Shown piece by piece: positions 11,126 through 63,195 of a DNA stretch of 64,000 nucleotides. Each line of letters opens with the position of its first letter. Positions within the stretch are counted from its first letter, which is position 1. The stretch covers positions 434,001 through 498,000 of the forward strand of contig JAEUTO010000006.1 of the NCBI GenBank assembly GCA_016787785.1. Reading direction: 5' to 3'. The DNA comes from Bacteroidia bacterium. Lineage in GTDB: Bacteria; Bacteroidota; Bacteroidia; B-17B0; Aurantibacillaceae. The notes below the pieces were generated by a model that was given only the letters and a program-made list of their open reading frames with translations, was not told where the DNA came from and made no database searches. The position numbers were made by a program, and so were the translations under genes.

Positions 11126-11336
11126 TTCCTTTTTTATAAATAATTTTTCTTTTTTACTTTTCCTTAGTCGAAACCCTTCGGCTTCGCTCAGGATAAAATC
11201 CAACAAAAGACAAGGCAAAACGATCTTTCTGCCCGCTCTTGATTTTTTTTGAAAGGCTAATAAAGTAAAAAATTCTATTCCTCGGTTTTTATATTAAGAG
11301 AACAGAATTTTAAACGACAAGCGCCTTTCAACCCAC

Positions 11337-11391
11337 GAGCCGGCTCTTCGCTAAAAATATGCATTGCATATTTTATTTACGCTCAGCCCTC
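11337..11391 (-). repeat. Hairpin cassette inserted in copy A
   Basis: The cassette begins with the palindrome GAGCCGGCTC and contains arms AAAATATGCA (11354-11363) and TGCATATTTT (11365-11374) around one base. Copy B lacks it. On the minus strand it aligns base for base with 42370-42420 in copy C (GAGCGT...TTTTTAGCGA-GAGCC), but the arms there are AAAATGTTTG and CAAACATTTT. Four of the ten pairs differ in both partners at once. Confidence 0.8.
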
Positions 11392-11511
11392 TTTCTACAA
11401 AAAAATCAATTCACCCCTCCCACGCCAAGCGTTTTGCCTACCCCGCGCTCCGATAACTCAAATATCTAAACGCAGATCAGTCCGCGTAAGCACACAATGT
11501 TAGACGGCCTT

Positions 11512-11635
11512 TTAAAATTTTGCGTAAAAAATCATTGGCATTCACAAGCGGTTGCATGTGCGAAGATGATTTTGGCTGTTCGCGAAGCGCTTAAATCATC
11601 GGCTTGAATGGTAATGATTTTTAGCAAAATTTTAA
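11512..11635. repeat. Central foldback of copy A
   Basis: The arm starting TTAAAATTTTGC at 11512 is answered by AGCAAAATTTTAA ending at 11635. Pairing continues inward with small bulges through TAAAAA, TCATT, CATTCA and AGC, about 34 paired positions. Inside, GATGATTT (11565-11572) pairs perfectly with AAATCATC (11593-11600). Copies B and C have an unrelated centre at the same place. Confidence 0.75.
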
Positions 11636-11655
11636 GAAGCCTTGATTTTTTGGTT

Positions 11656-11677
11656 ACTTTTTGATCAAGCAAAAAGT
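11656..11677. repeat. End hairpin of copy A
   Basis: Arms ACTTTTTG (11656-11663) and CAAAAAGT (11670-11677) enclose the loop ATCAAG. The same hairpin is at 42516-42537 in copy C. In copy B (14345-14366) the closing pair is swapped from G-C to C-G. Confidence 0.8.
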
Positions 11678-11862
11678 GACGCCAAAAATAAAGTTCAGAA
11701 ATTTCTGGGATTTGATTTTTTGCTTGCCACCACACTATCTCGCTCGACGCTTGGCGTTGCCGTCATCAAGCAAAAAGTGACGGCAAGAATAAGTTCAGAA
11801 ATTATTTTTAGTTTGTAAGATGGATTTTGACTTAAAAATCTTAGATTTAATATCACAATTTT

Positions 11863-13368
11863 ATGATGATCATCAGAAAAATATTATTATTCGTTCTTAT
11901 TCTAAATACGCTAAATACGTTTTCTCAAAAAGCATTTATCCCCGAACCCACACTAAACGTAATAAGCGATTTTGAAAAACTATTAACCGAAGAAGAGATC
12001 AGTACTCTTGCACACGACATTAAAGGCGAATACAATTCTAACTCTAACCAGGTAATGGTTGTAACAATTCCCACAAGTTATTTAGGGAATTTACAAATTG
12101 AAGATTACGCGCAGCAATTATTTGATAAATGGCAACCCGGACAAAAAGGGCTAAATAACGGTGTACTCGTTATCATTGCAGGTTCTAAAATTGACAGTAT
12201 TGGCCGTAAGTTGAGGATCCACACAGGTTATGGAATTGAAGGGGCTTTGCCGGATCTGCTTTGCGCCAGAATTGAAAAGGAGATGATGGTACCTGAATTA
12301 AAAAAGGGAAATTATTATAAAGCAATTAAGAACGGTGTAACTTCTATCTTAAATTTTATAAGTAAAGAAAATGTAGGCAAAGCACCAAAATATAAAATTG
12401 AAATACAAAAGAGTGGCGACCTTGTTTACGATTATGCAAGGATCTTTACTGACGAAGAAAAAAAGAAGCTGGAAGAAGAAATGCAAGGCATGTTCAACTC
12501 TAATAATTTTATTATTCTAACTGAATCACAAACCGGTTATGCTTCAAATTATGTTAGCATTTCTGAACGTTATTCTTACAGTTATGATACTACATTAATA
12601 AAGATCGCATTCAATCCTGGTTATTTTGTTGATGAAAAAGATTCTATTTTGAAATTTGATGAAAGCCGGAAAAATTATTATGTAAGCTTTATAGCAAAAT
12701 ACGCTGCTTTTGATTTTAAAGATTATAATAAACTCTATAAACAACAAGATGCCTTAGCTACTCGCATATCTTCTTCGGGAATTTACGCTGCTTGTATGGG
12801 ATTAATTGCTGAAGAAAAACTTGGTTATGCAAAGCGTTTAAACGATTTTATAATGCTTTTATGTTATTTATTAGGAACAAGCATTTTGGTATTCGTTATC
12901 TTTTTAATAACTAAAAAAGCAAAGGATAAACCTTTAAAAGAGAAAAAGAAAACGGGTCTAGTAAAAGTTTTGATTGGAATAGTATTAACACTTATAAACC
13001 TTTACTCATTTGTAAGTCTTATCTCTTTTGAATTGCTTTATTATTTAGTGTTTAATGATTTTATTGAAATGAGTGCTTTTGCTATGATCAGCTTGTTGGT
13101 TTTATTAGGAGCATCACAAATATTTAATATGCTTTTTGTACATAAGATCAATACTAATTATTTTAACTCTAAATTATTTAGCTGGTTACCTAAAGGTGGA
13201 AGCGGCGGCGGTGGTGGAAGTAATTATTCATCTTCTTCTAATTCATCCTCTTCATCCAACTCCTCTTCTTCAAGCTCTTCCAGCAGCAGCTCCAGCTCAT
13301 CTTCTAATGGCGGCTATTATGGCGGCGGCGGTAAATCCGGTGGGGGTGGTGCGAGTAGTGATTGGTGA
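11863..13368 (+). CDS. TPM-domain membrane protein (YgcG-like) with Ser/Gly-rich tail
   Basis: A 501-residue protein with an N-terminal signal segment (RKILLFVLILNTLNTFSQ). Residues about 25-165 form a TPM domain, seen in VISDFEKLLTEEEIS, NQVMVVTIPTS, QLFDKWQPGQKGLNNGVLV and HTGYGIEGALPD; this domain is found in thylakoid and bacterial envelope proteins and some members have phosphatase activity. A second, divergent copy may follow at 185-310. Membrane segments lie at about 325-348, 363-385 and 392-425. The last 55 residues are runs of Gly and Ser ending GGGGASSDW, a tail typical of YgcG-like proteins. Two consecutive ATGs begin the gene; the first is used here. Function is unknown beyond envelope location. 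Confidence 0.8.
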   Translation: MMIIRKILLFVLILNTLNTFSQKAFIPEPTLNVISDFEKLLTEEEISTLAHDIKGEYNSNSNQVMVVTIPTSYLGNLQIEDYAQQLFDKWQPGQKGLNNGVLVIIAGSKIDSIGRKLRIHTGYGIEGALPDLLCARIEKEMMVPELKKGNYYKAIKNGVTSILNFISKENVGKAPKYKIEIQKSGDLVYDYARIFTDEEKKKLEEEMQGMFNSNNFIILTESQTGYASNYVSISERYSYSYDTTLIKIAFNPGYFVDEKDSILKFDESRKNYYVSFIAKYAAFDFKDYNKLYKQQDALATRISSSGIYAACMGLIAEEKLGYAKRLNDFIMLLCYLLGTSILVFVIFLITKKAKDKPLKEKKKTGLVKVLIGIVLTLINLYSFVSLISFELLYYLVFNDFIEMSAFAMISLLVLLGASQIFNMLFVHKINTNYFNSKLFSWLPKGGSGGGGGSNYSSSSNSSSSSNSSSSSSSSSSSSSSSNGGYYGGGGKSGGGGASSDW

Positions 13369-13422
13369 GGTTATTTCATTTTAAGAACACACGGATTTTA
13401 TGCCGGAGCCTTATTACAAACC

Positions 13423-13590
13423 TTAGCTCGAGCAGAATTCGCAGCTGCCATCGTCATTACCATCGGTAATTTCAAGCATTTTCTTTTGGGCTTCGGCCTC
13501 AATTTGTTCGGGCGTCCAATCAGGGTTGGCGATCTTTATCAGCGACTTAATAAAGTTGCTGTTTGGTAGGTTTTGTGTGTTGTTTTGCAT
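13423..13590 (-). CDS. Small 55-residue ORF with C-terminal Cys-x-x-Cys, unrecognised
   Basis: A complete ATG-to-TAA frame on the minus strand in an otherwise gene-free 1.1-kb gap. It starts MQNNTQNLPNSNFIKSLIKI, has ANPDWTPEQIEAEAQKKML in the middle, and ends GNDDGSCEFCSS. Composition is that of a real soluble protein: an amphipathic N-terminal helix, an acidic middle and a Cys-rich end, with no hairpin DNA inside it, unlike nearby spurious frames. It has no signal peptide or membrane segment. A perfect 10-bp inverted repeat lies 31 bases upstream of its start. It could be a metal-binding small protein or a modified-peptide precursor; no maturation enzyme is nearby, so neither can be claimed. 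Confidence 0.6.
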   Translation of the reverse strand: MQNNTQNLPNSNFIKSLIKIANPDWTPEQIEAEAQKKMLEITDGNDDGSCEFCSS

Positions 13591-13620
13591 ACAATGAAGT
13601 TAATACAAAGCATTTTTTAT

Positions 13621-13655
13621 TAAAACAGCTATAACACATTTTACCAGCTGTTTTA
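13621..13655. promoter_or_regulatory. Perfect 10-bp inverted repeat upstream of the 55-residue ORF
   Basis: TAAAACAGCT (13621-13630) and AGCTGTTTTA (13646-13655) are exact inverse complements separated by 15 bases. The centre is A+T-rich and no T-run follows, so it looks more like an operator than a terminator. It is placed 31 bases upstream of the minus-strand start at 13590. Confidence 0.4.
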
Positions 13656-13830
13656 TAAACAGCAAAAAGTGAGAACAGTGTTAAAATGGTTTTGCCTTCG
13701 CGCAACTTATTCTTTACTTTACATTAATCGAAATTTCTTTATGTTTTTTATGTCACTTTTGGCGTAAGACTTTGCGATTTACAAAATGAGGTTCGCAAAC
13801 ATATTTGAGCCAGTCTGTGTGAGGCAGCAC

Positions 13831-14372
13831 AATTTTTCTTTTTTACTTTTCCTTAGTCGAAAAGTAAACAAAAGACAAGGCAAAACGATCTTTCCGCGCA
13901 CTCTTGATTTTTTTTGAAAGGCTAATAAAGTTAAAAATTCTGTTCCTCGATTTTTACATTGAGAGAACAGAATTTTAAACGACAAGCGCCTTTATTGCCT
14001 TTCTACAAAAAATCAATTCACCCCTCCCACGCCAAGCGTTTTGCCTAGCCCACGCGCCGATAACTCAAACATCTAACCGCCAATCAGTCGGCGTAAGAAC
14101 ACAATGCGAGACGGCCTCAAAGAAATTCCGTACGATTTGAGTTTTAATTTTTTATCCTGGCAAATTTTAAGGGCATAACCCAATTAAAATATTTATGCGG
14201 CTTGCTGCTCTTAAAATTATTCGAGCCCGCGCTGTTTGAGCCCCTCGCAAATGAGTTGCCGGAAGGGGCGAGTTTGCGGGCGACACGAAAAAAATTTAAA
14301 ACTACAAATCAAGGAATTTGTTTGTGAGCCTTGATTTTTTGGTTACTTTTTCATCAAGGAAAAAGTGACGGC
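13831..14372. repeat. Large modular intergenic repeat, copy B
   Basis: This is the most intact copy. It opens with a hairpin of arms TTTACTTTTC (13842-13851) and GAAAAGTAAA (13859-13868), loop CTTAGTC, and closes with a similar hairpin ACTTTTTC (14345-14352) and GAAAAAGT (14359-14366). The first part up to 14117 is shared with copy A; the second part (14113-14330, from GGCCTCAAAGAAATTCCGTA) is shared with copy C. In copy A the right arm of the opening hairpin is broken by an insertion. The copy lies between the TPM gene and the M1 peptidase, which converge. Confidence 0.85.
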
Positions 14373-14397
14373 AAGAAATTAGGTAAGTATTTTTTCC

Positions 14398-14445
14398 TCC
14401 TCCGCCCTTCGGGCACCTCCTCCAAAGGAGGACACTGCGTGGACT
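14398..14445. repeat. Short CCTCCTCCG...AAAGGAGGAC repeat, variant with GCCC-TTC-GGGC hairpin
   Basis: It has the same outer sequence as the repeat at 531-602, but the middle is replaced by the hairpin GCCC-TTC-GGGC followed by ACCTCCTCCAAAGGAGGACA. It lies between copy B and the terminator of the M1 peptidase gene. A third middle (TCGCTACGCGCC) is seen at 23465-23516. Confidence 0.75.
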
Positions 14446-14488
14446 AACGCTTAAGCAAAAAGAAAGGCAAAATTATTTTTCAAAAAAA

Positions 14489-23390: not shown

Positions 23391-23516
23391 TGTCCCTCTC
23401 TGGAGAGGGTGCCCGGAGGGTGGGAGAGGGATATATACTGAACTCTATTTTGCTAAATCGAAAACCCTCCTCCGTCGCTACGCGCCACCTCCTCCAAAGG
23501 AGGACACTGTGTGTGC
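23391..23516. repeat. Two adjacent short intergenic repeats in a 378-base gap
   Basis: The gap 23178-23555 holds no convincing gene. From 23391 there is TGTCCCTCTC...GGAGAGGGA, a self-complementary repeat whose first half recurs at 49788. From 23465 follows CCTCCTCCG, a TCGCTACGCGCC middle and CCTCCTCCAAAGGAGGACA, as at 14398. Between them CTGAACTCTATTTTGCT is a remnant of the longer repeat at 531. Three overlapping frames here (about 60-100 residues) are translations of these repeats. Confidence 0.7.
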
Positions 23517-23555
23517 TCACGCGGAAGGTATTATATGGTGCGTTAGACGAAACGA

Positions 23556-42191: not shown

Positions 42192-42541
42192 AGGTGGCCT
42201 CAAAGAAATTTCGTACGATTTGAGTTTTAATTTTTTATTCTGGCAAATTTTAAGGGCATAATCCTTTTAAAATATTTAGGCGGTTAGCTGCTCTTAAAAT
42301 TATTTGAGCCCACGTTGTTTGAGCCCCCTCGCAAACGAATTGCCTGAAGGGGCGAGTTTGCGAGCGGCTTAGGGCGGAGCGTTAAGAAAATGTTTGGCAA
42401 ACATTTTTAGCGACGAGCCAGCCTGCGTGCAAACAAAACTACAAATCAAGCTACGCACAAGCCGGCTCAAATAAGCACAGCTTATTTGCCCTTTGTGAGC
42501 CTTGATTTTTTGCTTACTTTTTGATCAAGCAAAAAGTGAGG
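42192..42541. repeat. Large modular intergenic repeat, copy C
   Basis: This fills the 450-base gap between two converging genes; no gene is seen. It starts GGCCTCAAAGAAATTTCGTA and follows copy B (14113-14372) to the end hairpin, but lacks the first half of copy B. It carries two hairpin cassettes not in B: one at 42370-42420 (arms AAAATGTTTG and CAAACATTTT, 42387-42407) and one at 42460-42491 (AGCCGGCT, then arms CAAATAAGC and GCTTATTTG, 42468-42488). The end hairpin is ACTTTTTG/CAAAAAGT at 42516-42537. CTCGCAAAC and GTTTGCGAG near 42330-42365 form another stem. Confidence 0.85.
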
Positions 42542-42634
42542 ACAAAGATAAGTTTAGAAATTATTTAGGAGTGATTTTCTTGTTGCAAAAACAGTTTCGT
42601 TAGCTATCAGAGTATTTAATGCTATGCGTTGAAG

Positions 42635-57122: not shown

Positions 57123-58011
57123 TTAACGCATTTTCTGCACTTTCAAACTCAAATTCAAATCCGGTGCTTTTTATTTTTTGATTACTGATCTTTATACCTT
57201 CGGTAACCATAACATAACCTTCTCCCATGGCTATTTTTAAAAGAAAAGCCGGCACATTCGGCAAGAAAAACGGTTTATTAAAACTCTTGGCTAATTGCCT
57301 TGAAAAGGCTTGGTTCGTTATCAATTCTGAAGCAACACCATTGTAAATACCTTTAACTTTTTGATCGAATAAGGCATGCACAAATATGGCCGCAATATCA
57401 TTAATATGGATCCATGGAAAATATTGTTCACCACTTGCAATTGCAGCGCCAAACCCTAATTTAAAAGCCGGAACCATTTTGGCATAAGCACCACTATTTT
57501 TGCTTAAAACAACACCTGTTCTTATTATCGATGTGCGAATGCCAGAATTAATAAAAGGTTGGTAGCTTTTTTCCCAAAGTATACAGCTCTCTGCAAGAAA
57601 ATCAGTTCCTGCATTATCTGTTTCTGAAAATAGTTTTTCGCTTTGTATAGCGCCATAATATCCTATAGCGCTACCGCCAACCAAAGTGCGTATTGGAAAT
57701 TTATTTTTAGAGATGTAGTTAAACAACAATTCGCTGCTTTTAACCCGCGAATCAATGATCTGTTTTTTGTAAGTACTGGTCCACCGTTTATCTGCAATTC
57801 CGGCGCCCGCCAAATGAATGATGCTTTCTACGCCTTCAAACGCTTTTTCGTCAATATAATCTTTAGCGATATCCCATTTATATTTTGTGATTCCTTTGAA
57901 ATTTCCTGCTTCCCGGCTTAGCCAAACGGGTTGATGACCACTTTTCAACAATAGTTCAGAAATTGCGCCCCCTAAAGAGCCACTTCCGCCGGTAATTAAT
58001 ATCTTTGACAT
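57100..58011 (-). CDS. TIGR01777-type NAD(P)-binding epimerase-like protein (YfcH/SulA-like)
   Basis: A 303-residue extended short-chain dehydrogenase. The N-terminus has the nucleotide motif ITGGSGSLGGAISELLL, then IIHLAGAGIADKRWT, GGSAIGYYG with the Tyr of the active site, and SIIRTGVVLSKNSGA; the C-terminus matches the DUF1731-like end (KPFFLPNVPAFLLKIAMGEG). The family is widespread and its substrate unknown; the name sulA cell-division inhibitor used for it is misleading. The last few codons come from a short tandem repeat. Confidence 0.9.
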   Translation of the reverse strand: MSKILITGGSGSLGGAISELLLKSGHQPVWLSREAGNFKGITKYKWDIAKDYIDEKAFEGVESIIHLAGAGIADKRWTSTYKKQIIDSRVKSSELLFNYISKNKFPIRTLVGGSAIGYYGAIQSEKLFSETDNAGTDFLAESCILWEKSYQPFINSGIRTSIIRTGVVLSKNSGAYAKMVPAFKLGFGAAIASGEQYFPWIHINDIAAIFVHALFDQKVKGIYNGVASELITNQAFSRQLAKSFNKPFFLPNVPAFLLKIAMGEGYVMVTEGIKISNQKIKSTGFEFEFESAENALKSLVLSR

Positions 58012-58049
58012 AACTTAACTGTTTAAACACGTTAATGTAATAAAAGTTT

Positions 58050-58358
58050 ATGGTTTTTGATATTCATATTTTTGTTTGTACTAACCAACGCTCAGGAGGA
58101 GACAGGTTAAGCTGCGGCGAAACCCACGGACTGGAACTGGTAGCCGAATTTAAAAAACAATTAAAAGACCTTAAAGTAAATTTAAAGACCCGTGCCAATA
58201 AAAGCGGCTGCCTTGGTATTTGCGATTTTGGTCCTACGGTAGCCATTTACCCTGAAGGGACATTTTATGTGGGTGTAAAAAAAACAGATGTAAAAGAGAT
58301 TATTGAGTCGCACGTTATAAATAAAAAAATTGTTGAACGCTTATTATTAAAGCCTTAG
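58050..58358 (+). CDS. Thioredoxin-like [2Fe-2S] ferredoxin
   Basis: A 102-residue protein with the thioredoxin-fold [2Fe-2S] ligand pattern: Cys10 (FVCTNQR), Cys22 (LSCGETHG), Cys54 and Cys58 (SGCLGICDFGPTVAIYPEG). The final cysteines and the FGPTVAIYPEG strand match the Clostridium/Aquifex-type ferredoxin of the NuoE fold. It probably transfers electrons in the cytoplasm. It starts 38 bases after the divergent epimerase and is followed by two closely spaced genes. Confidence 0.92.
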   Translation: MVFDIHIFVCTNQRSGGDRLSCGETHGLELVAEFKKQLKDLKVNLKTRANKSGCLGICDFGPTVAIYPEGTFYVGVKKTDVKEIIESHVINKKIVERLLLKP

Positions 58359-62995: not shown

Positions 62996-63195
62996 AAACA
63001 TAGCCACATAGGAAAGAGGTAAAACTTTACACCTAAGAGTTTACAAAGTCTCTTCGTCTTTGACGAAGAGATCCTATGTTTTCTTTATAAATTTTTAGAA
63101 ATTCCTCCTCCGCCCATTTGTTTTTCTGGACTCCATTTTGCTTCGCAAAACTTCCAAAATAGGACAAGCTATGCGCCTATGTGTTTAATTTTTTA
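62996..63195. repeat. Composite intergenic element with TCTCTTCGTC hairpin plus CCTCCTCCG repeat
   Basis: The left half (62996-63100) begins ACATAGCCACATAGG and holds the perfect hairpin TCTCTTCGTC (63049-63058), loop TTT, GACGAAGAGA (63062-63071), homologous to 59240-59262. The right half (63107-63187) is the repeat of 531-602, with TTTTGCTTCGCAAAA. The right end CTATGTGTTTAATTTTTTA includes the stop codon of the minus-strand gene at 63193, as at 59184-59338. It lies between convergent genes. Confidence 0.8.

Follow-up and report, generated by a model that had tools for sequence, protein, structure and literature searches.

Gene-flanking mosaic repeats in a Bacteroidia genome are composites of interchangeable folded halves and look like small mobile elements

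Three intergenic copies of related sequence (A, 11143-11688; B, 13832-14375; C, 42196-42545) lie in the 64,000-nucleotide stretch of DNA analysed here, which we call the window, and their overlapping sets of parts raise the question of what kind of element trades its modules and how. The earlier note on this DNA had offered two answers, a mobile or recombining non-coding element and a structured RNA family with swappable domains. We found that the copies are mosaics from one genome-wide family of non-coding, gene-flanking repeats, each a composite of interchangeable folded halves that end in a pseudoknotted hairpin, and that these repeats look like small mobile elements. Mosaic repeats such as BIME and BOX have long been known in bacteria, and to our knowledge the exchange of their modules has rarely been visible; in the relatives compared here, the same sites are found empty, differently filled or flipped. 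The family was not found in the literature searched.

Architecture and distribution of the arms

The mosaic structure read from the letters of the window was borne out. Copies A and B have the left module L1 in common (82% over 187 positions, 90% over 120) and differ in their centres, a foldback (CF) in A and a second type (CB) in B; copy C consists of the centre of B (91% over 171 positions) and the end hairpin, without the left module (Table 1). Copy B had rightly been described as flanked by two related hairpins, which form terminal inverted repeats matched by model R1 at 13839-13883 (-) and 14326-14372 (+), both having been part of the alignment from which R1 was built. Likewise, the opening hairpin of A is disrupted by an insertion, copy C has two insertions with hairpins of their own, and there is no convincing gene inside; the ORFs of at least 35 aa listed over A and B reach 68 aa at most, flanking genes aside. 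The interval first described also contains an unrelated TPM-domain gene (11863-13368) between A and B.

Table 1. Positions in the window of the parts of copies A, B and C and of adjoining features
Feature	Position	Strand	Basis or remark
A, left arm L1	11143..11473	+	Profile match, E=2e-63; inserts at 11171-11201 and ~11338-11390; L021 has the same two
A, outer hairpin, first arm and loop	11153..11170	+	R1 only 14.7 bits
A, outer hairpin, right arm interrupted by 31-base REP-like insert	11171-11201		
A, core K (CGTAAGCACACAATG) between both arms	11485..11499	+	Exact match
A, right arm CF (foldback centre)	11506..11645	+	Covariation
A, end module: GCCTTGAT and hairpin 11653-11680	11639..11680	+	R1 67.4 bits; pseudoknot test
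Degenerate second end hairpin, small hairpin inserted inside	11739..11789	+	
Stretch that relative L079 (G006) lacks at the orthologous site	13685..14391	+	BLAST segments
B, left arm L1	13832..14080	+	E=8e-77; covariation
B, left end module: hairpin 13842-13868, pseudoknot strand 13874-13879	13842..13879	-	R1 51.0 bits; L1 covariation helix 3
B, core K, 1 mismatch	14092..14106	+	
B, right arm CB	14112..14327	+	E=5e-81 including end module; covariation
CB internal motif, CTGTTTGAG-[variable stem]-CGAGTTTGC	14232..14277	+	
B, end module: GCCTTGAT and hairpin 14342-14369 with pseudoknot	14328..14369	+	R1 67.9 bits; pseudoknot test
REP-like arm immediately outside copy B	14396..14437	+	
C, right arm CB, without left arm or recognisable core	42196..42368	+	Best core match: 7 mismatches
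C, two small inserted hairpins, 42381-42414 and 42464-42490	42381..42490	+	By eye
C, end module with pseudoknot	42499..42540	+	R1 65.7 bits

Each element comprises two folded half-elements, here called arms, placed head to head. An arm measures about 140 to 260 bases. Its head is followed by a long nested stem, and the hairpin that closes the end is pseudoknotted, its loop pairing with some 6 bases just inward; the loop of the copy A hairpin, for instance, is able to pair with CTTGAT. There are two left arms (L1, L2) and two right arms (CB, CF), and all four pairings occur, as do right-right pairs: the 49 elements found in six genomes include L1/CF (6), L1/CB (8), L2/CF (4) and L2/CB (8), two of these 26 left-right elements having an additional L1 fragment, together with right-right pairs arranged head to head (5), one tail-to-tail arrangement, two larger clusters and 15 single arms. 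Two-arm head-to-head pairs, that is, extragenic inverted doublets, thus make up 31 of the 49 elements, and none of the 49 was classed as lying within an ORF. A 31-base insert recurs in the L1 arms of copy A, L021 and L023, whose partner is CF in two cases and CB in one, indicating that an arm, once altered, was copied and joined to a new partner.

The earlier note had named as the contrary outcome that only these copies would be found, with no conserved boundaries or structure; instead, the source genome gave 31 matches to copy A and 15 to the centre and end of B (E<=0.001), scattered over four contigs or more. Of 198 Bacteroidia genomes, 76 contain the end hairpin; these span many genera, so that further intergenic repeats of the class that lack an explanation could be classified by it. 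In the six genomes the arms usually meet at a 15-base core, which 72 of 89 arms have at their inner end (three mismatches or fewer, either strand), as against 1 of 40 arms in 17 other genomes (38 of the 40 distinct, L040 and L061 overlapping); its absence outside one clade shows that it is dispensable for the wider family. Three features had not been foreseen in the earlier note: a core shared by arms that meet head to head, the pseudoknot, and the occurrence of the end hairpin across the class.

Folds kept through paired changes

The size and folding of the arms made covariation tests feasible. Relative to 100 shuffles each, folding z-scores were -7.1 for copy B as DNA and -6.9 and -6.0 for its two strands as RNA, -4.9 for A and -3.7 for C. 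Of 162 non-overlapping arm matches, only near-full-length ones entered the alignments, and in hand-chosen sets that omitted more divergent or gappy sequences (20 of 23 for L1, 17 of 21 for CF, 19 of 36 for CB), covariation was 0.241 against 0.086 in shuffled alignments for L1, 0.231 against 0.108 for CF and 0.139 against 0.088 for CB, with none of 500 shuffles reaching the observed value in any of the three. The folds of L1, CF and CB are maintained through paired changes. Further pair types occurred at or near chance level (CB, 244/500; end module, 111/500), and RNAalifold gave a poor consensus on the gappy 36-sequence CB alignment. L2, left out of the shuffle-based test, had compensatory changes at 9 of 25 pairs by RNAalifold (14 sequences). 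The loop of the end hairpin covaries with the strand just inward of it, as expected of a pseudoknot (mean 5.73, against 5.20 with partners swapped; 0 of 500 swaps). Paired changes in palindromes can also arise by template switching.

A strand preference of the arms is suggested by an excess of wobble pairs read on the head-to-end strand; summed across four arms, the pair-events number 50 against 24 (p=0.003), in counts omitting those pairs whose commonest Watson-Crick pair fell below 60% (1 in L1, 8 in CF, 11 in CB and 2 in L2). RNAalifold-based counts for L2, read end to head, favour the opposite strand (G-U 21, A-C 5). Such counts favour G-U by construction, and the L2 count on the hand-set pairs agrees with the other arms.

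Orthologous sites and gene context

Comparison with relatives revealed presence and absence, as well as turnover of arms, at orthologous sites. The site of copy B is empty in G006, where BLAST segments bring window positions 13684 and 14392 together at 12819 and 12820 of L079; a REP-like arm similar to that just outside copy B also adjoins this empty site. Site 21 is empty in G018 (a gap of 29 bp against 651), site 22a in G018 and G020 (about 91 against 897) and site 25 in G018, G020, G006 and G034. Conversely, the G020 element L082 is missing from the source genome at window 58011-58050. Filled sites differ in content: site A holds L1/CF in the source genome and L2/CF in G018, and site B holds L1/CB in the source genome and an inverted L2/CB in G018. 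Together with the genome-wide copies, these empty sites, swapped arms and inverted element uphold the proposal of a mobile or recombining non-coding element.

The arms common to orthologous sites are mostly not mutual closest relatives, so that hot-spot reinsertion and in-place exchange are not told apart. Simple orthology of the CF arm at site A was rejected, since the two arms are 92% identical, yet each is nearer to copies elsewhere. No obvious target-site duplication was seen by eye at sites 21, 22a and 25 or at copy B, where flanks are only about 80 to 90% identical, and no clean boundary was found at sites S9 and C. At site S8 in G020, the gene between two elements is inverted.

Divergent gaps are rare among the 49 elements, 18 of which lie in convergent, 4 in divergent, 23 in tandem and 4 in unclear gaps (18:4, p=0.004). 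With one of the 23 tandem cases dropped for a spurious ORF, orientation relative to the tandem genes was the same in 9, opposite in 10 and both in 3; a function in mRNA 3' UTRs was rejected, as this orientation looks random.

Known systems, candidate enzymes and rival explanations

Single-strand elements of the IS200/IS605 type have sub-terminal secondary structures at their ends, a likeness extended by the strand preference suggested here; unlike them, the present elements have ends that are inverted copies of each other, and the source genome has no Y1 gene. REPINs and BIMEs, associated with RAYT transposases, are described in PMC3116915 and PMC3733652 as extragenic folded inverted doublets forming mosaics and dimers of like or unlike units, and our family resembles them in these features and in its spread within the genome, but differs in arms several times larger, nested stems, a pseudoknotted end and the lack of a linked Y1 gene among the loci examined. 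In described architecture, BOX repeats of streptococci are likewise modular, intergenic, separately folding and variable at their ends, the middle module in S. suis being enclosed by either boxA/C or boxE/F (PMC3049150), but their middle modules (boxB) stand in tandem, whereas the present elements join two folded arms by their heads and exchange either one. As MITEs are characterised in the same paper (PMC3049150), the likeness lies in non-coding elements below 1 kb with related inverted ends, folding and empty orthologous sites; the exchange of halves sets our elements apart, and neither a target-site duplication, by eye, nor a same-ended parent transposon, among the genes and loci examined, was found.

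We consider the family to be, probably, a composite, non-autonomous mobile repeat (MITE-, BIME- or REPIN-like), in which each arm is a unit of its own that folds as a single strand and can change partners. Its behaviour could be accounted for as follows: (i) each arm would act as a separate folded single strand, either ssDNA in replication or RNA; (ii) arm copies would be made in trans by a putative enzyme recognising the folded end; (iii) insertions would survive mostly away from gene starts; and (iv) arm swaps, element flips or loss of a half would follow from recombination or renewed insertion, with the core as a possible crossover point, giving mosaics because the arms are separate units with a common core and near-identical ends. 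If so, mobile elements can be built from interchangeable halves.

A REPIN/BIME system with a RAYT-type Y1 transposase, since lost from the source genome, is a quite unlikely alternative. The inverted, extragenic, hairpin-forming doublets would suit it, as would the 33 Y1_Tnp matches, which came from 11 of the 12 arm-rich genomes searched. However, Y1_Tnp had no match in the source genome, and the end hairpin was at none of the 21 Y1 loci of relatives (of the 33 matches) whose surroundings were examined, 4 of 7 tested having other inverted flanks (a test that omitted L169 among the Y1 loci and, for DUF559, the fragments or atypical loci L119-L123, L128 and L129); on these grounds an IS200/RAYT identity was rejected. 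Moreover, the arms measure 140 to 260 bases, in contrast to REPIN/RAYT palindromes of 20 to 40 bp with a GTAG or CGTC tag, and no such tag was seen by eye at the arm head, where the core, if present, is CGTAAGCACACAATG; nor did the source genome or the 21 loci have a cognate Y1 gene flanked by the repeat. The search for a parent transposon with the same ends gave no transposase in 15 neighbouring genes (Pfam), and no enzyme gene bounded by family ends was found among the Y1 and DUF559 loci examined.

A DUF559 gene of the source genome lies between inverted REP arms bearing the same core, which makes this nuclease a candidate. Inverted flanks (E<=1e-3) were present at 7 of 14 standalone DUF559 loci and also at 3 of 9 large fused ones, which served as control, and the 30 DUF559 loci had no large arm and one weak end-hairpin match (E=0.01), common to two overlapping loci; as the arm-rich G018 also lacks DUF559, it was rejected as a proven partner. 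A fuller version of the composite-repeat reading makes the arms independent genetic units, pseudoknotted half-elements of a class-wide family that fold as single strands; at persistent intergenic sites they would join at a short core, invert and find new partners, moved by a non-RAYT enzyme, DUF559 being one candidate. In its entirety this strikes us as distinctly improbable.

It is unlikely that transcription of the elements yields a structured non-coding RNA family whose domains can be swapped and which acts on neighbouring mRNAs or in trans, although the strong covariation, the pseudoknot, the wobble excess on the head-to-end strand and the internal motif around a variable stem, common to another family of the class, all speak for it. 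Within an element the arms occupy opposite strands, and a single transcript could therefore not have both on the favoured strand; presence among relatives is patchy; and Rfam 15 gave no match at gathering score in the window or in five loci (one sub-threshold miRNA match, E=0.048). Of the RNA proposal, the structural part is supported by the covariation and the pseudoknot, and the seemingly random orientation relative to genes in tandem (9 same, 10 opposite) counts against the rest. Passive, immobile repeats, spread by duplication and reshuffled by homologous recombination or gene conversion, would be compatible with the altered gene order or orientation near clustered elements (L023 against L066; L099 against L081), the lack of visible target-site duplications and the variation of arms at orthologous sites. 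This we regard as improbable, as several sites are empty despite collinear flanking genes, requiring insertion or near-precise loss, and copies are dispersed over the contigs.

Two further identities were set aside. Integron attC sites had been suggested by GTTAGAC in copy A, which by eye is lacking from copy B and the G018 copy. Carriage of copy A by plasmids or phages returned no records; among viral contigs, none had the internal motif, and two had the exact end hairpin.

Arms, pairings and folds

The earlier note had described three intergenic copies as mosaics of exchangeable parts, and the features it reported for copies A, B and C are present in the window sequence. A gene encoding a TPM domain lies within its interval 11142-14372, between A and B, so that these are two separate elements, one on each side. 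Profile searches over the fetched loci defined the end module (E) and the folded half-elements, here called arms, of which L1 and L2 stand on the left and CB and CF on the right (see the table). Among 49 elements counted in the 4.6-Mb, 16-contig source genome (G000) and five relatives (G018, G020, G006, G034 and G025), left and right arms are paired as L1/CF (6), L1/CB (8), L2/CF (4) and L2/CB (8), the other classes being right-right head-to-head (5), tail-to-tail (1), larger clusters (2) and single arms (15). Left and right arms of one element are always joined head to head; two of the left-right pairs carry an extra L1 fragment. A 31-base insert inside L1, found in copy A and loci L021 and L023, is joined to CF in two cases and to CB in one. 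End-hairpin arms also occur in tandem arrays, with a spacing of about 200 bp in G033; in G056 the spacing is 250-380 bp, and two of three arrays are located at contig starts.

L1, CF and CB each contain one long nested stem. On the basis of the structures that the window copies show, paired cells made up 96.2%, 93.9% and 91.6% of the total, respectively, the pairs changed on both sides numbered 27, 23 and 17 (shuffled means, 11.4, 9.4 and 10.0), and covariation was 0.241, 0.231 and 0.139, which none of 500 shuffles reached, slid versions of the structures scoring at most 0.069. The end module alone gave 0.182 versus 0.116 shuffled (0 of 500). Further pair types were at chance level in CB (244 of 500 shuffles) and came to 111 of 500 for the end module. 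Such paired changes could also arise by template switching in palindromes.

In the end hairpin, the loop base-pairs with the strand adjoining the hairpin on its inner side, at least six Watson-Crick pairs being possible in 104 of 128 hits (76 loci, tandem copies included). The 76 distinct loop/strand pairs average 5.73, versus 5.20 with swapped loops (0 of 500 swaps as high), and the alternatives are CTTGAT/ATCAAG, CTTGAC/GTCAAG, CTTGAA/TTCAAG and CTTGTC/GAC(T)AAG. CB further contains the motif CTGTTTGAG-[variable stem]-CGAGTTTGC, found exactly in 4 of 198 genomes of the class (5, 5, 12 and 3 copies), with no reversed-control motif among the genomes listed; in G095, of another family, it lies inside arms with the same end hairpin.

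Turnover and spread

Locus pairs fetched for carrying arms are biased towards occupied sites, and a second comparison set started from G000 sites alone, including sites 21, 22a and 25. Orthologous sites are empty or differently filled, in one case by an inverted element; outside the elements, the overlapping parts of L070 (G018) and L078, a locus of the MAG UBA2475 (DDPF01), do not differ. Locus L079, of another relative, belongs to JAEUTP01. One element, L066/L067, is clearly inherited, with both arms 97% identical and flanks about 90%, and reciprocal best matches are the exception among the remaining shared arms.

Features compared (window coordinates unless a locus is named)
Feature	Position	Source genome	Relatives
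Copy A (site A)	11143-11688	L1+CF	G006, ~60 bp gap between genes; G018, L2/CF
TPM-domain gene	11863-13368
Copy B (site B)	13832-14375	L1+CB	G006, 13685-14391 missing; G018, L2/CB inverted
Copy C (site C)	42196-42545	CB alone	both flanks comparable only in G020: other sequence, armless
Site of L082	58011-58050	missing	G020, L2/CB
Site 21			armless in G018 (collinear) and G020 (outer remnant, by eye); G006, L2/CB
Site 22a			armless in G018, G020; G034, CF-like fragment
Site 24 (right flank only)		L1 alone	G018, L2/CF; G020, L2 + CF fragment
Site 25			armless in G018, G020, G006, G034
Site S3		L1/CB	G020 and G018, CF-like arm with CB; G034, CB (one flank)
Site S8		REP pair	G006, L1/CB; G020, neighbouring gene inverted between L2/CF and L1/CF elements
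Short REP-like repeats between genes (CCTCCAAAGGAGGACA and relatives)	541-585, 14414-14455, 23486-23527, 63122-63166
DUF559 gene	L098 2063-2440	C13, ~416.3-416.8 kb
Tandem arrays	L061 1230-1750; L058 285-1091; L059 114-409; L060 1451-1747
Altered gene order or orientation	L023 3600-7700 versus L066 and L067; L099 versus L081

In relatives, the order of genes between elements is altered (P-X-Y-Z versus P-Y-X-Z), or genes are inverted between two elements, as if the elements helped to move genes. The 49 elements lie in convergent (18), divergent (4), tandem (23) and unclear (4) contexts, with ORFs of at least 100 aa taken as genes and one tandem assignment resting on a spurious ORF; they are rare in divergent compared with convergent gaps (p=0.004).

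A search with copy B matched 37 of 60 genomes, mostly partially, and the end-hairpin model matched 76 of 198 genomes of the class (53 of 120 genera), with at least 30 matches in one genome. Copy A found nothing in plasmid and phage collections; two stretches in viral contigs match the end hairpin. Our literature search, which left out preprints and most subscription papers, returned no paper describing the arm family or combining DUF559 with 'repetitive extragenic palindromic'.

Core, a possible favoured strand and candidate enzymes

The best-supported reading, which we consider probable, makes the family a composite mobile repeat whose units are the arms. What the data show are the arms with their pairings and folds, the sites that are empty, differently filled or inverted in relatives, and the scarcity in divergent gaps. 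Such a repeat may move through a single-stranded intermediate, be acted on in trans, and cross over at core K (CGTAAGCACACAATG), the 15-base sequence between facing arm heads in the six genomes. With up to three mismatches allowed, 72 of 89 arms there have K at their inner end, compared with 1 of 40 (38 distinct, as L040 and L061 overlap) from 17 further genomes, and the arms are thus more widespread than the core. With up to two mismatches, K occurs 12 times in the source genome versus 4 for the reversed control; eleven matches fall within elements examined and one on contig C2. K also heads smaller REP-like arms, as in L099 (REP'-K'-K-REP).

Read from head to end, all four arms show more wobble departures than complementary A-C mismatches (pair-events: L1, 11:7; CF, 9:1; CB, 18:11; L2, 12:5; sum, 50:24, p=0.003 with events treated as independent), a hint that this strand is the folded one. 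Counts based on RNAalifold point to the opposite strand for L2, a result on which that program's preference for G-U in whichever strand is supplied bears. An element's two arms are on opposite strands, so the acting unit would be a single arm and not the element as a whole.

As to the enzyme, Y1 transposases were found in 11 of 12 arm-rich genomes and are absent from the source genome, and the end hairpin lay beside the Y1 gene at none of 21 loci examined (of 33 matches). Four of seven Y1 genes tested in relatives have small inverted flanking repeats of their own (E<=1e-3; L168-L175), and these flanked loci are RAYT-like, with other REP families. DUF559 (nuclease-like, PF04480) is a lead only: in the source genome, one such gene is flanked by REP-like arms in inverted orientation, each bearing core K on its outer side (L098, K-REP-DUF559 gene-REP'-K'), a cassette with the core. 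Beside the same gene in G034 (L092; one flank compared) lie CF, CB and L2 arms. Among the 14 standalone DUF559 genes from this genus (L109-L118, L124-L127), 7 have inverted flanks (E<=1e-3), as do 3 of the 9 fused-type loci.
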